Shown: one piece after another, positions 3,528 to 37,775 of the stretch | How positions within the stretch are numbered: position 1 is the first letter of the stretch | How the letters are laid out: each line of letters starts with the position of its first letter | Virus record (IMG/VR): IMGVR_UViG_3300005563_000021 | Location: 1 to 40,717 of that record | Length of the DNA stretch: 40,717 nucleotides | Strand: one strand, 5' to 3' | DNA from: a virus | Position numbers and translations under genes: made by a program | The notes under the pieces: model-generated | What the model was told of the DNA's origin: nothing | Seen by the model: the letters and a program-made list of their open reading frames with translations, nothing else | The model's database searches: none

Positions 3528-3752
3528 TTAGTGGAGGGTCATTTTGCAGCCTTGGGCGCATCGCCCACAGGTACACGCCGGGAGCGCAATTCCCCAAGTC
3601 ATGCACTTGGACCCCGACTCCATGGTTTTCTGAATGACCCAGTTCATCGTATTGGCGTACCCGCATTCTCCCGTCCTTGATGAGAAATCCCAATCTCGGC
3701 CCTCGGCTAAATCAGCTGGGCGAGAGTAATATGCGCCGTCCACATTTTCCAT
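3528..3752 (-). CDS. Hypothetical 74-aa Cys-rich protein
   Basis: The start is placed at the ATG at 3752 (MENVDGAYYSRPAD); GAGG lies 12 bp upstream. Six cysteines cluster in the C-terminal half (GECG, KCMTW, CTCGRCAQGC), suggesting a metal-binding or disulfide-bonded module. It is the first gene after the 560-bp non-coding region, so its promoter should lie there. No family is recognised. Confidence 0.55.
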   Translation of the reverse strand: MENVDGAYYSRPADLAEGRDWDFSSRTGECGYANTMNWVIQKTMESGSKCMTWGIALPACTCGRCAQGCKMTLH

Positions 3753-9294: not shown

Positions 9295-9792
9295 TCATGT
9301 TTTTGGGTTGATGGAGGTATGGTCCGGTGAATTTACCACCGCGGTAGCGGGGCTGGATTTCCCGTGGGCATCACCACCAGCTTGGCCGACATTGCTGGCG
9401 GCTCCTGGACCAAATTGGGTGGCGGCACATTTCTCGCATGACTTGCCGTTAACCACGGCGGAGCGGCATTTGTCGCAGAGGTGAAATCCGCCGATCTTCA
9501 GCGCAGGTTCTGGCTTTGCTGGCGTGAATGGTTCCGGCATCGGCATCCATGCGAGCATACAGCCAGGCGCGATGCGCTGGCCGGTGATTGAGCGCCAGTC
9601 TCGGCCAGTGTGATACGGCTGGTAGAAGACGACGCGAACAGCGACTCCGTTGACCTCTTGGATAGTGGCGAGGATGTCGCGGTCCTTCGGCGCATCCTTC
9701 ATTTCGCGCCAAGCAGATGGGGCGGGTTTACGCCACCAATGGATCTGATCCTCCAGTGCTTTGAGGCGGGCTTCTACGATTGGGTCGCTCAT
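9295..9792 (-). CDS. 165-aa DUF551-like protein with C-terminal zinc ribbon
   Basis: ATG 9792 (MSDPIVEARLKALEDQ) is chosen over the longer frame to 10005, whose extra part is antisense to a transposase remnant. Residues about 29-80 (WREMKDAPKDRDILA ... MLAWMPMPEP) match the DUF551-type 'W..m..aP.dr.ILa ... c..WmPlPeP' pattern of phage proteins. Then HLCDKCRSAVVNGKSCEKC (about 111-129) is a four-Cys zinc ribbon. The tail is low-complexity. It runs against the surrounding rightward operon. Confidence 0.65.
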   Translation of the reverse strand: MSDPIVEARLKALEDQIHWWRKPAPSAWREMKDAPKDRDILATIQEVNGVAVRVVFYQPYHTGRDWRSITGQRIAPGCMLAWMPMPEPFTPAKPEPALKIGGFHLCDKCRSAVVNGKSCEKCAATQFGPGAASNVGQAGGDAHGKSSPATAVVNSPDHTSINPKT

Positions 9793-9841: not shown

Positions 9842-10390
9842 GTGCTGAATCTTACCGGCCTCATCGTTGAAGGGATGAAGGAGACTGAGGACGAATACGT
9901 CATCAGCGTGACCGTGAAGGAGGAGCCGCCCGACGTGGACTGCTGTCTCCTCCAAAAGCTGGTGTCGAATGGCCGCAAAGAGGCGTTCTTCACCGATACG
10001 CCCATGCACGGGCGCCCGGGTGACCCTCCGGATGCTGCGGCAGCGCTACAAGTGCCAGGCGTGCGGGAAGACGGCCTACGGCACCATTCCCCACATGCAC
10101 GAGGAGCACCGGGTCACCAAGCGGTGCCACGACTACATCTGCAAGACGGGCGGCAAGCGCACGTGGAGCACCCTGGCGAGCGAGCTGGGCCTCGACCCGC
10201 AGACCATCTCTGGCATCTGGAATCGCTGGGCCGACCGGGAACTGGCGAAGGTTAAGATGGCCACGCCCCGTTGGCTCGGCCTGGACGAGATCCACATCAA
10301 GGGCCGGGCGCGGGCCGTGATTACCAACATCGAGCACACTTTCGTTGGGGCACCAAACATGCTGCCCACCCTTCTCCGCGCTCACCCCAC
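9842..10390 (+). pseudogene. ISL3-family transposase remnant, frameshifted and truncated
   Basis: From GTG 9842 the frame encodes an ISL3-type N terminus (LNLTGLIVEGMKETED..., then FFTDTPMHGR). It continues one frame over as VTLRMLRQRYKCQACGKT (zinc finger), a helix-turn-helix (ASELGLDPQTISGIWNRW) and LGLDEIHIKGRARAVITNIE, the beginning of the DDE domain. Deleting one C from the CCC at 10015-10017 restores a single frame reading HGRRVTLRML. The match is lost near 10345, so the DDE domain is missing. I cannot fix the exact end or see IS inverted repeats. It is a decayed insertion element in a phage genome. Confidence 0.75.
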
Positions 10391-10530
10391 CCCAACCATT
10401 AGGAAATCCCGAATAGTTGGGAGTCGCAGACCTAAACTCAAAGAACTCCCCGACTGCACCTAATCCCCTTTCGGGGCGACACCATGAAGATGACTTTCAA
10501 TGCAGCAAGGGCATCCCCACCCTACCACGA
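10391..10530. other. Non-coding gap after transposase remnant
   Basis: No supported gene. It holds a short CCCC-TTTC-GGGG hairpin (about 10467-10478) without a T-tract and a 16-codon frame from the ATG at about 10483 that I do not accept. It is probably debris of the insertion. Confidence 0.4.
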
Positions 10531-11070
10531 CTAGGGGGAGCGATTCAATGGGGTGTTTACTTCATGTTGGGCGGGCAACCTGATATTCAAGTTCTCAAGT
10601 AGGCGACCCATCTTTCTTTCCTTTCGCTCTCTGCGGCGTTGGGCGCGGGCCTTTTGGGTTTCCCGCTGGCGACCCTCCTTTTCGATAAGCAGTCGGCGGG
10701 TCTCCGCATGTCCCATCTGCCGTAACACCTCCGCCCGGATTCCCAACTTGACCGCCGAACGACGAAAAAATCGGTTCTCCCGGCGAGTCGCCAAATCCAT
10801 CCTCGGCTTTCGGGGGAGGCGCGTCGATCTACTCCGATGTGTTGTCGATTCATGGTAAAGGCCATGACAACGCCGACAAAGGCAAACGAGGTCGCCCAAA
10901 AACTCCATCTCCTGCCTCAAATGCTCATAGGTCCGATGGTGCGCCTCAAGTTGCTTTGAACTATTACAGACTTGGCAGCGAAAACCGGCCTTCTCTTTCA
11001 CCCTTTCGGATACCTGTTTCCAGTAATCGGTAGTCAGGTACTGTTGGTATTCTATTTGTCTCTCAGTCAT
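10531..11070 (-). CDS. HNH endonuclease
   Basis: The 179-aa protein begins with a classic HNH core: YWKQVSERVKEKAGFRCQVC (residues 17-35), EAHHRTYEH (42-50) and LCRRCHGLYHE (64-74). Two CxxC pairs hold a structural zinc, and H44/H45 and the final His match the beta-beta-alpha-metal fold. The C-terminal two thirds is Arg-rich (SRSTRLPRKPRMD, ARAQRRRERKERK) and probably binds DNA. A free-standing homing-type nuclease is most likely. It follows the 72-aa gene by 2 bp and reads against the rightward block. Confidence 0.85.
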   Translation of the reverse strand: MTERQIEYQQYLTTDYWKQVSERVKEKAGFRCQVCNSSKQLEAHHRTYEHLRQEMEFLGDLVCLCRRCHGLYHESTTHRSRSTRLPRKPRMDLATRRENRFFRRSAVKLGIRAEVLRQMGHAETRRLLIEKEGRQRETQKARAQRRRERKERKMGRLLENLNIRLPAQHEVNTPLNRSP

Positions 11071-11072
11071 CT

Positions 11073-11291
11073 TTAATTCTTCTCCTGTTCGGTTCCAAAG
11101 GAGGCTTTTTGGGGCTCCAGTGAAGCCCTACCCCTTTCGGTTGCTCCTCGCATTTCGCCTTCTCCTGTTTCGGACGCAAAGGCGGGCCTCTTGGCCTTGG
11201 GGAGTGAAAACCTCCAGAACACCGCCCCCAAGGTCTTTTGCGAAATACGAATCACAACCGGCATCCCTTTTTTGTGGGCTATGCACCCCAC
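11073..11291 (-). CDS. Hypothetical 72-aa basic protein upstream of HNH nuclease
   Basis: The stop is 2 bp before the HNH start, so the two are probably co-transcribed. It starts at GTG 11291 or ATG 11264 (MPVVIRISQK), which cannot be decided. It contains a hydrophobic-basic middle (LGAVFWRFSLPKAKRP) and a polar tail. No family is recognised. Confidence 0.45.
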   Translation of the reverse strand: MGCIAHKKGMPVVIRISQKTLGAVFWRFSLPKAKRPAFASETGEGEMRGATERGRASLEPQKASFGTEQEKN

Positions 11292-11324
11292 GATTTTCCG
11301 ATGTAATACGAGGACGGAAAATAA

Positions 11325-11357
11325 GAAACCCCAGCAGGTAGAAGCTGCTGAGGTTTC
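11325..11357 (-). terminator. Hairpin H1 (12 of 13 paired); leftward terminator/attenuator
   Basis: Arms 11325-11337 (GAAACCCCAGCAG) and 11345-11357 (CTGCTGAGGTTTC) pair with one C/A mismatch around the 7-nt loop GTAGAAG. On the minus strand the stem is followed by TTATTTTCC, which fits an intrinsic terminator or attenuator in the leader of the HNH operon. Its loop is the exact complement of the loop of H3 (11394-11412). Confidence 0.6.
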
Positions 11358-11365
11358 CTGAAAAT

Positions 11366-11380
11366 GGCCCGTGTGAGGCC
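11366..11380. other. Hairpin H2, GGCC arms with 7-nt loop
   Basis: GGCC (11366-11369), loop CGTGTGA, GGCC (11377-11380). Only four base pairs, so it is weak alone, but it is the second of four stems in a row and shares the 7-nt loop size of H1 and H3. Confidence 0.35.
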
Positions 11381-11393
11381 CCTAAAGTCGTCT

Positions 11394-11412
11394 CATCGGC
11401 TTCTACCCGATG
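11394..11412. other. Hairpin H3 with loop complementary to H1
   Basis: CATCGG (11394-11399), loop CTTCTAC (11400-11406), CCGATG (11407-11412). Read on the other strand it is CATCGG-GTAGAAG-CCGATG. It therefore shows the same loop as H1 with a different but still complementary stem, which suggests two copies of one structured element in inverted orientation. Confidence 0.55.
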
Positions 11413-11424
11413 CCCCCAGAGAAA

Positions 11425-11464
11425 CCCCGATACCCCATCTATGTCAATACCTGATGGGGCGGGG
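11425..11464 (-). terminator. Hairpin H4, 12-bp stem with 3-nt bulge
   Basis: CCCCG-ATA-CCCCATC (11425-11439) pairs with GATGGGG-CGGGG (11453-11464) around a 13-nt loop. On the minus strand the stem is followed by TTTCTCT, the same GGGGTTTCT junction as in the hairpins at 5197 and 11325. It is very GC-rich and stable. Confidence 0.5.
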
Positions 11465-11564
11465 AGGGCGAAAATCTTTTGGTGGGCGGCCCGAACCTAA
11501 CTATAGGTAATAACCCCCAGACAGATTGAGCGATTTCTCTAGCTAGGCGGGATGCCCTGAGTGG

Positions 11565-11570
11565 TGTATT
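11565..11570 (+). promoter_or_regulatory. Possible -10 box TGTATT just before ATG 11579
   Basis: TGTATTCT starts at 11565, leaving 8 bp between the hexamer and the ATG. It resembles the TATATTCT boxes at 12915 and 17198 but lacks the GATTTA element, and a GGGGAC sequence that could act as an SD lies between. Weak call. Confidence 0.35.
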
Positions 11571-11578
11571 CTGGGGAC

Positions 11579-11854
11579 ATGAAAAACGAACTCTACTCCG
11601 TCAAGCGCGTTGATAGTGGCGTCTATGAAGTCATCTGTCGGGGCGTTTCGCTCGGCACGATTCGTAACAATGCGGGCGATGATTCGTTCTGGTCAAGCGC
11701 CCGCTGGACTGTGGATGGCGTTCCTGCCTCTAAGCACGGTTACGCTGGCCGCAACACGGGCATGAAGTTCTCTGGTTTCCGCTACCTCGAATCCGCCGCC
11801 AACCATATCGCCATCATGGCCTCCATGCAAATTATCCGACTCGTGAACGCCTAA
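11579..11854 (+). CDS. Hypothetical 91-aa protein
   Basis: ATG 11579 (MKNELYSVKRVDSG) is preferred to the GTG at 11561, which would lie inside the putative -10 box. The sequence looks like a compact alpha/beta protein: YEVICRGVSLGTIRN, SARWTVDGVPAS, then a helix AANHIAIMASMQII. No family is recognised. It is the first gene of the rightward block after the leftward island. Confidence 0.7.
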   Translation: MKNELYSVKRVDSGVYEVICRGVSLGTIRNNAGDDSFWSSARWTVDGVPASKHGYAGRNTGMKFSGFRYLESAANHIAIMASMQIIRLVNA

Positions 11855-33106: not shown

Positions 33107-34108
33107 TTAGTTGGCACCGGCAAACTTGCCGAGACCCAGCGGGTTCTTGACCATGAGCGTCAGGGCTGCGCGGAGGTAGCCGTTGGGGCCGCCGCCAAAG
33201 TCCGGCAGGTCCACCGGCTCAACACCGTACATGTAGGAGATACCCACAAGGTCCGGGTCGATGACGTAACCCCGGTTCTGCTGGGCCGTGGTGACGACGC
33301 CGGGATTGGCCCCGTCAACCAGACCGTTGAACATGTCCGGGATAATCGTGACGGTGTGGAAGTCGCCCACATAGATGGTCACGTTGAGGTCAATCTGGTG
33401 CTGGGTCGCATCCTGGTTGACCAAGTAAACCTGCGTGGCCGTGGTGCCAGAGCCGTTGCGCTGGAACTTGCTGATCGTCCGCTTGAGGGTGGGGCCGGAA
33501 TACAGCGTATAGCTGCGGCGACCGCCAACCTGCTGGAAGATCGACTGGAACACATCGTTGAAGCCCGACTCCGTGAGCGCACCAGAAGTGGCCGTAGAAA
33601 TCGAAGCTGACGGGGTGGTGTAGGCGGCGGGAACGTCCGAACCCGGAGTCGTGGAAATCCACTTGCCGAGGGCGCGGCACTTCGAGGGAACCAAACCCGT
33701 ACCCACCTGAAGGTCGTTATCGGAGCCGATCATGGCTTCAATATCGCGCTTCATTTCGCGGGCGGCCTTGGTCTTCGAGTTGGCCATTTCGTTCGTCACG
33801 CCAGCCGGATCGCTCGCAAGCTGGTTGCGGGAAACGGCCCAAGTGCGGGAGAAGTCCTGCACTCGGTTGCCGACGCGGGCGCGCTGGGCCACTTGGTCAG
33901 CAAAGGAAGCAACGTCCGCACCTTCAACCACGCCGCCGAACGAGACGGGAAGCAGGGTGTCCATTTGCCATTCCTGAAGCATGTTAAATGCAACGGAGGT
34001 CTTGGAGAACGTCGAAGTTTTCGGGCAGTCCTCCGGGGTAAGAATCGTGAGGGCGTTCGTGAGGTCTTCACGGTCACCCGCCGTATTGTAAGTAGTGGCG
34101 ATAGCCAT
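33107..34108 (-). CDS. Major capsid protein, SU10/DUF5309-like
   Basis: 333 aa, HK97-fold type. The N-terminal LTNALTILTPEDCPKTSTF and EWQMDTLLPVS are followed by FGGVVEGADVASFADQVAQR. NRVQDFSRTWAVSRNQLASD and KTKAAREMKRDIEAMIGS are the conserved 'R.gN..Qif...v.vSrt' and long-helix region of SU10-type capsids. The C-terminal half carries YTLYSGPTLKRTISKFQRNG and DLPDFGGGPNGYL. Order scaffold, then capsid, supports the call. There is no SD. Confidence 0.8.
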   Translation of the reverse strand: MAIATTYNTAGDREDLTNALTILTPEDCPKTSTFSKTSVAFNMLQEWQMDTLLPVSFGGVVEGADVASFADQVAQRARVGNRVQDFSRTWAVSRNQLASDPAGVTNEMANSKTKAAREMKRDIEAMIGSDNDLQVGTGLVPSKCRALGKWISTTPGSDVPAAYTTPSASISTATSGALTESGFNDVFQSIFQQVGGRRSYTLYSGPTLKRTISKFQRNGSGTTATQVYLVNQDATQHQIDLNVTIYVGDFHTVTIIPDMFNGLVDGANPGVVTTAQQNRGYVIDPDLVGISYMYGVEPVDLPDFGGGPNGYLRAALTLMVKNPLGLGKFAGAN

Positions 34109-34110
34109 TT

Positions 34111-35208
34111 TTAGAGAGAGTTACGATGTCGTTGGTTGGCTAGAAGAAGCTGGGCAAAGTCCTTATGCCCGAGGCTCTTTTTTCCACCTGTGACCTTCGC
34201 TCTCTCCTGCTGCAAAGCCTGCTGACTTAGAATCCCCGTAGGGGCGCGGGTAATGCTCGCGTCCGATGTGATTTCGGCCTGCCCCTTGGTCGGGACCGCC
34301 TTCGGCTTAACCGCCTGTTTCGCCTTGGGTTCCTCTTGCTCCGTTGCAACAAGCTGCCCTTGGACAATCAGGCCCACCAAGTATTCCGTGTTTGGGTAGC
34401 TCCGCAGAATCGGGTTTTCCCTAAGTGCGGTTTTCGCCATCTGATAGCCCGGGTGCGAGGGGTCCGCGAGAAATGGGAATTTCTCATGAGCCGCCTGCGT
34501 GGACTGGACACGGGTGTTAAGGAACTTCTCGCGGGCGGGAATCGCCATGCGTTCGTCCTTCTTGGCTTGGGTGAGGGCTGCGATTAACTGCGGCTTGGTC
34601 ATGGTCCCCCACTTGGTTTCCAGCCCGGTAGCGGGGAACTCCGTGTGAAGGAGCATTTCCGCCTCGATAATATCGTTCTGCAATGCGTCCCGATAATCGT
34701 TAAGGGCTGACAAGCTGGTGATATGCGCCAAGGGCACGTTCGCGGAAACCGGAACTTCAACCTCCTTCTCTACCTCCTTTGGTTCTGAAACCATGGATTC
34801 GAGCCGGAGAATTTTGGCCTCCAATTCCTTGCGTTTCGCTACCTCTTTGCCGATACGCCGGTTGATCTTTTCTTTTAGCTTTGAGTCGAGAGTTGGGGTC
34901 TCGGGTGAAAGAACCTCCTCAGTTTCGGTTTCGGCATCCTCGGATTCGGGGGTTTCAACCTCCGTCTCTTTGGGTTCCTCCGCCGTTACTTCGGCAATGG
35001 GGGCTTTCGCCTCCTCCGTTTGTGGCGCGGCTTGAGCCTGTTCCTTCACGGTTTCGACCGCCTTTGCAAAAGCAGCGGGGGGCGTTTGTTTCGCCGCCAA
35101 CTTCCTAGCAAAATCGGACATTCCCGTATTGGATGCGCCGTTCTTCTCAGCCGGGGTTTGCGCTTGCGCGACGGGCTCGGCAGGAGCCGCTTGAACTGTA
35201 TCGGACAT
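34111..35208 (-). CDS. 365-aa scaffold-like protein
   Basis: Acidic low-complexity N-terminal third (TEEAKAPIAEVTAEEPKETE), then a charged coiled coil (KLKEKINRRIGKEVAKRKEL). A helical middle and a basic C terminus (KVTGGKKSLGHKDFAQLL) follow, the usual order in scaffolding proteins, where the basic tail binds coat protein. It sits directly before the capsid gene. ATG 35208 lacks an SD. Confidence 0.7.
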   Translation of the reverse strand: MSDTVQAAPAEPVAQAQTPAEKNGASNTGMSDFARKLAAKQTPPAAFAKAVETVKEQAQAAPQTEEAKAPIAEVTAEEPKETEVETPESEDAETETEEVLSPETPTLDSKLKEKINRRIGKEVAKRKELEAKILRLESMVSEPKEVEKEVEVPVSANVPLAHITSLSALNDYRDALQNDIIEAEMLLHTEFPATGLETKWGTMTKPQLIAALTQAKKDERMAIPAREKFLNTRVQSTQAAHEKFPFLADPSHPGYQMAKTALRENPILRSYPNTEYLVGLIVQGQLVATEQEEPKAKQAVKPKAVPTKGQAEITSDASITRAPTGILSQQALQQERAKVTGGKKSLGHKDFAQLLLANQRHRNSL

Positions 35209-35318: not shown

Positions 35319-35606
35319 CTACGCTTGCTGTGCTTGCTCCGCCATTTGGCGCTGCTGGGCCTCTAAAAGCTCTTTCTGGGCCTTCTGGGTTTCGATTAAC
35401 CAGAGGTAGGCCCGAATCTCCCCCTTGGCCAAAAGGGACTCCCGTTCGCTTTTCACGGTATCGGTATGCACCCAGTATTGAACCGTGTAGTCCTTCATTT
35501 CCCGGACGGTCTCGATGAACTTTTCAAACTCCGGTAGGGCGGCCAACGGAGTGATAGCGGCAACCATGGCGTCCCGCTGTTTGTCAGCGGCGGATTTACG
35601 GGGCAT
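35319..35606 (-). CDS. Hypothetical 95-aa helical protein between portal and scaffold
   Basis: PRKSAADKQRDAMVAAITPL, then EKFIETVREMKDYTVQYWVH and a Gln/Ala-rich C-terminal coil (QKELLEAQQRQMAEQAQQA). Helical throughout. Likely an assembly or scaffold cofactor, inferred only from position 3 bp after the portal gene. Confidence 0.6.
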   Translation of the reverse strand: MPRKSAADKQRDAMVAAITPLAALPEFEKFIETVREMKDYTVQYWVHTDTVKSERESLLAKGEIRAYLWLIETQKAQKELLEAQQRQMAEQAQQA

Positions 35607-35609
35607 AAA

Positions 35610-37775
35610 TTATTGGGCGGAAGGGCCGATAACTGGTGTCGGCATAATAGCGCCAAGCTTCCCGATTTGAATGTTATTTTGCTGGTCTGACAGCATTTGC
35701 ACCTGTTTCTGGTAAACATCCACCCGCTCCTTAAACGCCGGGTCGGCATGATAACGCGCAACCACATCAGGCGACTGTGCCCAGTTCTGAAGCGTCTGTA
35801 GGGCAATCTGCGGGGGAGTCTTGGGCTTCACGTTCACCGGGATTCCCGCCCAAAGTTTCGTCAGGTCATCCTGCACCTCCGCAATGACCGCCTCCGCCCC
35901 AACGTCAGCCGGGCGCAAAATCTTGGCCGCAATGGTCGGATCGTAGGCGTCTAGGCCAACCTGCAAGAACTCCGTCCAATCAACAGCCCCCGTCCGGTCC
36001 ATCTGGGCGGCGAGGTTCATCATGCCTTCAATCTGCTTCTGCTGGAACTCCGGGTCGGAATTGCGGATATCATACCGCATCTCAAAATAGAACTGCTCCT
36101 CATCGGGGCCGCGCTGAAATTCGCTCCCGTCGTCATTCTGAATCCCCACCACGCGGAAGTAAGTCACCTCGTTTCCGTACTTCTTAAAGAGCCTCCACAC
36201 CTGACCAAGAGAAGCAGCGAGTGAGACGAATATCTTGTTAATCTCCGCTTGGTTTTTCGTGGGGTTAATCGGTTCATCGGAATCCGATTTGGCGAATCCA
36301 GCGTAGTCCCTCGCGTCGTTATTGAGGGTGGCAAGGGAGGCTTCCGTGGTCTCGTCAAACGGGATGGGTTGACCGTAGTGGTATTCATTCGGGCGGCGTT
36401 CTGGCACCCGCGCACCAGCTCCCCAAGTCAGCAACGGCCTGCCAATCGGATAAAAGATCGTCGGCATGATGTTGTAGCTTGCCGTGTCAATGCGGGCGTC
36501 CTTGTGGGCCTTGATATTATCCTGGAGGGGCTTTAATGGCTCGGGGAGGCCGCGAGAGTCATGCAGTTTCCGACTAAGATATTCGCGGCGGTAGAGGATG
36601 AATGGATAGCGCCCGTCCGAATCCCCATAGAGGGAGAATTTCGCAAAACCATTGTGCGCCTTCCAAGTCTCCCCGCCCGTGGACGACGGAAGATCAGGGG
36701 AGAAGATCGTAAGATAAATACCGGGCACCCCGTCCTCATCAGAAAGCCGCTGATACGCCCACACGACTCCAATTTTATCCGTGAACCGCTGCTGGGTGTA
36801 GATAAAACTCCGGCTCATCGGCTGCATGTATTCCGATGGCGTCACCGAGAGCATTTTCCCCTTACAAGTAGCAATGGCGTTCTCCACCCAGTTCTTGTCC
36901 CAGCCGTCCGTATTGACGAGGGAGCGCAACTTCTCGGGGGTGTAATACTGGACGCGGTAAATGCCAGTAGCCTGTTCAATGTCCGTCGTGTCGGGCGGGA
37001 TGAAAAGGTCCGTGTCGAGGTTGAACGCCCGCATGACGGGAAATGAACGCTCCCGCCCAACCACCAGAACCGTAGTAATGCCGAACTGGGTCAACTCGCG
37101 GACCATTTTATTGGCCTTCACCCGGCTGACTCCGTACAGCTCCTCAAAAATCGACTTAATGTAGTCGTCAACGTCCCCCGATTGGAGAATCTGAGCAAAA
37201 TCCACATCGGGATAGGCCGATTGGAAGTCCGAAACACGAATCTGGGTTAAAATCTTCTCTTGGGAGGTCTCCCAGAACTGCCCCATGACTGCCGCCCCCT
37301 TCTCTTGGAGGTATTGGGCCATCAACTCCACCTCCCGCTCAAAATCCGGCATCTGGGTCTTAATCATCCACCGCATGAAGGTGGAAACCTGCTTCGCCCG
37401 CTTGATGTCATTCCCCTCTACTGGGGTCGCCACGAGGGAGGCTTTATTGATCGCCTCCAAGATCATCGCAACCTTGTCGTTAATCAGGTTGTCGATCAGG
37501 AACACCCGCATGTCAGATGCCCCATCCCACGGAACCGGCGCAACCTGACCATTAGGCCCCCGCGAGTGCTTCTTACCGTCTGCTGTCTGGCCGCCCCAAA
37601 TCGCATAACGAGCTGCATAGTTCTGCCCGTTTTGTGTGATTACCGGCTGGCAGTCAGAAACGCACTTCTGAAAGGAATACTTCAGTTGGTCGAAGTCCGG
37701 CCCCGACTCCCCCATCGGCGCAAGTTGCAAGTCCGCGTCGGGAAGGGTTGAGGTGGTGCCAGTAAATGAGGACAT
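35610..37775 (-). CDS. Portal protein, P22-type fold
   Basis: 721 aa, the largest protein here, long for portals and typical of P22-like podovirus portals. Helical N terminus (VAMILEAINKASLVATPVEG), FLIDNLINDKVAM, and a clip/stem region (FDQLKYSFQKCVSDCQPVIT at the N terminus; ERSFPVMRAFNLDTDLFIPP in the middle). The C-terminal part ends in a Gln-rich coil (QKQVQMLSDQQNNIQIG). It forms the dodecameric channel at the capsid vertex. It lies directly after the large terminase as in most podophages. Confidence 0.8.
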   Translation of the reverse strand: MSSFTGTTSTLPDADLQLAPMGESGPDFDQLKYSFQKCVSDCQPVITQNGQNYAARYAIWGGQTADGKKHSRGPNGQVAPVPWDGASDMRVFLIDNLINDKVAMILEAINKASLVATPVEGNDIKRAKQVSTFMRWMIKTQMPDFEREVELMAQYLQEKGAAVMGQFWETSQEKILTQIRVSDFQSAYPDVDFAQILQSGDVDDYIKSIFEELYGVSRVKANKMVRELTQFGITTVLVVGRERSFPVMRAFNLDTDLFIPPDTTDIEQATGIYRVQYYTPEKLRSLVNTDGWDKNWVENAIATCKGKMLSVTPSEYMQPMSRSFIYTQQRFTDKIGVVWAYQRLSDEDGVPGIYLTIFSPDLPSSTGGETWKAHNGFAKFSLYGDSDGRYPFILYRREYLSRKLHDSRGLPEPLKPLQDNIKAHKDARIDTASYNIMPTIFYPIGRPLLTWGAGARVPERRPNEYHYGQPIPFDETTEASLATLNNDARDYAGFAKSDSDEPINPTKNQAEINKIFVSLAASLGQVWRLFKKYGNEVTYFRVVGIQNDDGSEFQRGPDEEQFYFEMRYDIRNSDPEFQQKQIEGMMNLAAQMDRTGAVDWTEFLQVGLDAYDPTIAAKILRPADVGAEAVIAEVQDDLTKLWAGIPVNVKPKTPPQIALQTLQNWAQSPDVVARYHADPAFKERVDVYQKQVQMLSDQQNNIQIGKLGAIMPTPVIGPSAQ

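Follow-up and report, generated by a model that had tools for sequence, protein, structure and literature searches.

The hairpins and their setting

The window, by which we mean the whole stretch of DNA analyzed (40,717 bases), is an IMG/VR virus record whose proteins include a major head protein, a terminase, an Erf-like annealing protein, a YqaJ-type recombinase, and a RusA-like resolvase. Two hairpins, H1 and H3, lie here in a noncoding gap, flanked by an HNH gene that reads leftward and an operon that reads rightward from 11561. The features of this gap and its borders, by position in the window, are as follows.

10531-11070, minus strand: HNH endonuclease gene, downstream of H1 on that strand (PHROGs HNH families, best E 8.8e-10)
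11293-11322: H0, an 8-bp hairpin, one arm of which overlaps the T tract of H1
11324-11318, minus strand: T tract TTATTTT, directly 3' of H1 (sequence and terminator scan)
11325-11357, minus strand: H1, predicted intrinsic-terminator hairpin with 13 pairs (one G-U) and minus-strand loop CTTCTAC; in plus-strand letters, GAAACC-C-CAGCAG / GTAGAAG / CTGCTG-A-GGTTTC
11332-11352: inverted repeat I1, H1 arm, 21 nt, 81% complementary to 11392-11412, a pairing that is an alternative to the local H1 and H3 hairpins (repeat search)
11366-11380: H2, a weak hairpin (GGCC-N7-GGCC) between H1 and H3 (sequence; a 5-bp version in the minus-strand fold)
11392-11412: inverted repeat I1, H3 arm (repeat search)
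11394-11412: H3, CATCGG / CTTCTAC / CCGATG, with a 6-bp stem and the loop CTTCTAC on the plus strand, GTAGAAG on the minus strand
11433-11459: H4, to the right of H3, with a 7-bp stem and a 13-nt loop, containing TTGACA on the minus strand
11561-11854, plus strand: gene that opens the rightward operon, divergent from the HNH gene (ORF and codon-bias score)

On the minus strand, H0 could form only once the polymerase is past the H1 terminator. The first rightward gene, taken as 11579-11854, was without a family match. Between the divergent genes, a palindrome (ACCTA-ACTA-TAGGT, 11495-11508) overlaps a minus-strand TATAGT and is a candidate operator or promoter. At 9969-10463, the window holds an N-terminal fragment of an ISL3-family transposase (PHROG 5749, E 3.5e-25; 63 bits in NCBIfam, under its cut-off), which in a phage is possibly a retained DNA-binding protein or a decaying insertion.

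Complementarity of the two loops

A sequence-only reading of this DNA had described H1 and H3 as hairpins with perfectly complementary 7-nt loops. Its coordinates and sequences for both proved correct, GTAGAAG and CTTCTAC being exact reverse complements, and TTATTTT does follow H1 on the minus strand, both in the sequence and in the terminator scan. Equally borne out was its statement that H3, read on the opposite strand, has the loop of H1 on an altered stem that still pairs: two pairs are changed and both are compensated. When H1 on the minus strand was set against H3 on the plus strand (CTCAGCAGCTTCTACCTGCTG and CTCATCGGCTTCTACCCGATG), 17/21 positions were identical, and the four differences make up two fully compensatory stem pairs, G-C to T-A and A-T to G-C. 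When four substitutions were placed by chance in a simulated inverted copy, the loop survived together with all six pairs in 195/500,000 trials. A pair-count shuffle gave 135/500, a test that cannot judge from two sequences.

To place the pair against background, complementary-loop pairs were counted under one strict definition (at least 6 Watson-Crick pairs per stem, 5-10 nt per loop, spacing of at most 150 nt). The window has one such pair, while shuffled windows have none (n = 25); there were none in 1.88 Mb of relatives' loci, some of which overlap, and two in 1.97 Mb of unrelated loci. Together these loci span 3.85 Mb, and the expectation is about 0.02 pairs per window. Perfect hairpins with a stem of at least 6 bp and a 7-nt loop number nine in the 40.7 kb, and H1 and H3 are the only two among them with complementary loops. 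The pair is therefore above noise and unusual for one window, though not astronomically so across the many scanned, and others exist elsewhere. An unrelated viral contig (L289, near 3585-3660) has two hairpins with complementary 5-nt loops on 9-bp stems that differ in sequence, framing another inverted repeat.

The region in relatives and databases

A search with the major head protein recovered 80 IMG/VR loci, with up to 90% identity. These relatives do not share the H1/H3 region, neither hairpin is carried by them, and no complementary-loop pair was found in them by the strict definition; the region is strongly diverged, so this is weak evidence against conservation. A relaxed search of other records returned a few scattered pairs with partial loop complementarity.

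One relative, G005, has its own HNH gene, and the only DNA common to the two HNH upstream regions is a 33-bp block at 11260-11292 of the window, 88% identical in G005 (L161:16554-16587; G005 35554-35587). The block contains TTTTTTGTGGGC-ATGC-CCCCAC, the ORFs over it are dissimilar between the two phages, and a pattern search modeled on the conserved stretch ahead of HNH matched G005 alone. At the place matching H1, G005 has a terminator-like hairpin that is unrelated to H1 in sequence; it lies on the minus-equivalent strand upstream of the HNH gene and is followed by a T-rich stretch. G005 also has an integrase-like gene there, none being recognized in the window, and the spot therefore looks like a place of gene exchange.

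The integrase-like gene of G005 (PHROG 1, E 6.2e-9) lies with two small genes beside the HNH gene at L161:14380-16105 (G005 33380-35105). Both phages carry an inverted repeat, CCTTGGGG-N23-CCCCAAGG, upstream of HNH (window 11195-11233; L161:16448-16490, G005 35448-35490), with an identical stem and 23-nt spacing, different spacer sequence, and positions on opposite sides of the 33-bp block; a plus-strand TCTTTTG follows the window copy. Another locus (L164:18512-18594; G007 37512-37594, approximate) has a tRNA-like stretch whose ends match and which includes a T-arm-like CGGAG-TTCGAGC-CTCCG; ARAGORN did not call it.

Protein searches with the HNH protein, the first rightward gene product, and ERF found no viral relatives, and DNA searches with the H1/H3 region returned nothing in phages and plasmids. 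No Rfam family reached its gathering score in the window (best weak match E 0.24), and alignment of the major capsid protein against a bacterial genome collection gave no relatives.

A predicted leftward terminator and its rivals

We then considered on which strand the two hairpins might act. H1 folds at -19.8 kcal/mol on the minus strand vs -17.4 on the plus strand, and H3 at -7.5 vs -6.0. On the minus strand, H1 forms 13 contiguous pairs, including one G-U, that run straight into TTATTTT, whereas the plus-strand version is broken by a C-A mismatch and its tail, CTGAAAA, holds no T tract. H1 combines a stable stem-loop with an adjoining T tract on the same strand, as intrinsic terminators do, and at -22.1 kcal/mol it ranked first in stability among 49 terminator-like hairpins from the window and its relatives. 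H3 has a T tract on neither side. Across 11290-11560, none of 200 shuffles folded as well as the minus strand (z -3.6); z for the plus strand was -1.9. The pairing and the T tract of H1 both favor the minus strand, and we read the locus as a minus-strand terminator with an upstream partner hairpin.

We prefer, with a probability of about 0.5, to read H1 as a plain intrinsic terminator of the minus strand and H3 as its inverted partner, either diverged from it or similar by convergence. H1 would stop leftward transcripts just ahead of the HNH gene, and the stopped transcripts may be a short RNA, a leader, or stray antisense RNA from the rightward operon. H3, 36 nt upstream of H1 on the minus strand, may be a diverged inverted copy or a hairpin that came to resemble H1 by convergence, and the complementary loops would then be a consequence of the inverted relationship. 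Leftward transcription of the region in the host, with termination at H1, is what we infer. The nearest gene upstream of H1 on the minus strand is divergent, and a sigma-70 scan found no good minus-strand promoter upstream of H1, with weak candidates only at 11447 and 11529; the TTGACA at 11447, within H4, has a poor -10 partner (TTCTCT). A plain terminator leaves unexplained why H3 keeps its pairing together with the exact loop complement, an outcome seen by chance in 195/500,000 four-change inverted copies.

As in intrinsic (rho-independent) terminators, H1 has a GC-containing 13-bp stem, a 7-nt loop, and six T in seven bases on the minus strand; where such terminators close an operon, this predicted one precedes the HNH gene and has a divergent gene at its back. 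A parallel is offered by the insulator terminators of mobile elements such as Tn916 (PMC11658703), in that H1, too, might keep stray transcription out of a gene unit.

The sequence-only reading had gone further and suggested that loop pairing controls termination. The analysis did not establish that claim: a 7-bp kissing contact leaves the 13-bp stem of H1 intact, and only pairing that spreads into the stems would compete with it, an alternative often matched by shuffles and by other terminator-like hairpins. In an extended version, a leftward leader would attenuate the HNH unit: H3 would either pair with the 5' half and loop of H1, as an antiterminator, or fold on itself and free H1 to terminate, the loops nucleating the switch and a protein, a ribosome, or another RNA tipping the balance. 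We regard this as rather unlikely. The terminator and antiterminator folds are mutually exclusive, and the duplex of H3 with the 5' half of H1 reaches -25.8 kcal/mol. In growing-RNA folding, the H3:H1 pairing was the minimum-energy structure whichever of four 5' ends was assumed, with the 3' end at about 11336-11332, and for three of the four it was preferred over a wider range of 3' ends; the terminator fold takes over by 11325, and the finished RNA favors it by about 6-11 kcal/mol. However, the gain of 9.7 kcal/mol was matched by 16/150 shuffled upstream sequences and equaled or exceeded by nine others of the 49 terminator-like hairpins, and a duplex test gave 8/1000 with one query length and 77/1000 with a shorter query. 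Since shuffles and other hairpins do as well, energetics alone give no argument for a switch; the pair is also present in no relative, has no convincing promoter, and matches no Rfam entry. Kissing control is, as an interpretation, possible but unproven. We give only a slim chance to a self-contained phage attenuator in which the loop of the upstream hairpin pairs with the terminator loop and so nucleates an antiterminator; a single short RNA ahead of the HNH gene would then hold the two parts of a kissing switch.

ColE1 kissing loops are 7 nt. The resemblance to ColE1 that the sequence-only reading had noted stands for loop size and goes no further: the ColE1 loops kiss between two RNAs of opposite strands, so the shared size is mere resemblance. 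In ColE1, the complementarity of RNA I and RNA II arises because both strands of one region are transcribed, and it controls replication priming (PMC8683028); the window shares with that system complementary hairpin loops, but H1 and H3 lie on one strand, and their neighbors are the HNH gene and the rightward operon, with no replication gene adjoining. In the pT181 attenuator, a separate antisense RNA kisses a leader hairpin, the loop-loop contact being part of the mechanism, and a hairpin upstream of the terminator carries sequence able to pair into the terminator region, as H3 does (PMC3753616); in contrast, one strand carries both the H1 and the H3 loop, and there is no known antisense RNA here. 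The putRNA of phage HK022, an early-region RNA of about 70 nt, likewise has two stem-loops and is an antiterminator that acts on RNA polymerase without a linked terminator (PMC9378689); H1/H3 differ from it in having no Rfam or sequence match and, where put has no linked terminator, a predicted one.

Other readings dispense with attenuation of the HNH gene. The locus might encode a stand-alone leftward RNA of about 90-180 nt, with H3 near its 5' side and H1 as its 3' end, in which H3 and H1 kiss internally or a loop acts on another RNA. With divergent genes upstream, a leftward transcript ending at H1 should indeed be short, the minus-strand fold of 11290-11560 surpasses every shuffle, and the TTGACA at 11447 would place a start near H3; we nonetheless think it distinctly unlikely, given the poor -10, a promoter scan that found none, no homologue anywhere searched, and the two other sites with a loop sequence (GTAGAAG/CTTCTAC at 9622 and 9771 only), which bear no sign of being targets. 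It is very unlikely, too, that the element works at the level of DNA, with H1 and H3 as two inverted palindromic sites sharing an identical 7-bp spacer, be they recombinase core sites, paired REP-like palindromes, or operators of divergent promoters. Their inverted order, same spacer, and palindromic arms would suit such an element, G005 has its integrase-like gene at this spot beside its HNH gene, and comparable background pairs were found in inverted palindromes of unrelated DNA. Against it, no recombinase, and with it no linkage to a tyrosine recombinase, was recognized among the window proteins scanned, the arms covary inside each site rather than matching a common half-site, the window has no third copy of the site, and pattern matches elsewhere were true hairpins in 12/238 cases, about the chance rate (~1/16 expected). 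Least probable, in our estimate, is that a terminator and an unrelated hairpin have loops that match by coincidence: some 0.02 pairs are expected per 40-kb window, and many windows and many kinds of feature were scanned, but the similarity reaches beyond the loops (17/21) and the stem changes are compensated.

Further candidates were set aside. The loop CUUCUAC resembles the anticodon loop of tRNA-Arg(UCU), but a tRNA or attP remnant finds no tRNA in the window and no T-arm by eye beside the loop. A link to IscB and omega RNA fails on the score of the HNH protein (22.6 bits vs a cut-off of 175), and no such RNA was matched. Leader-peptide attenuation would rest on an 11-codon minus-strand ORF (MGYRGFSGGIG) that by eye ends within the H3 loop and is without a clear ribosome site or codon bias.

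As things stand, the finding annotates a strong predicted terminator in a metagenomic phage that is unclassified. Should the pairing of the loops prove functional, H1 and H3 would be a compact natural case of a terminator that a second hairpin of the same RNA switches, of use to studies of how phages control their early genes and to the design of RNA switches.
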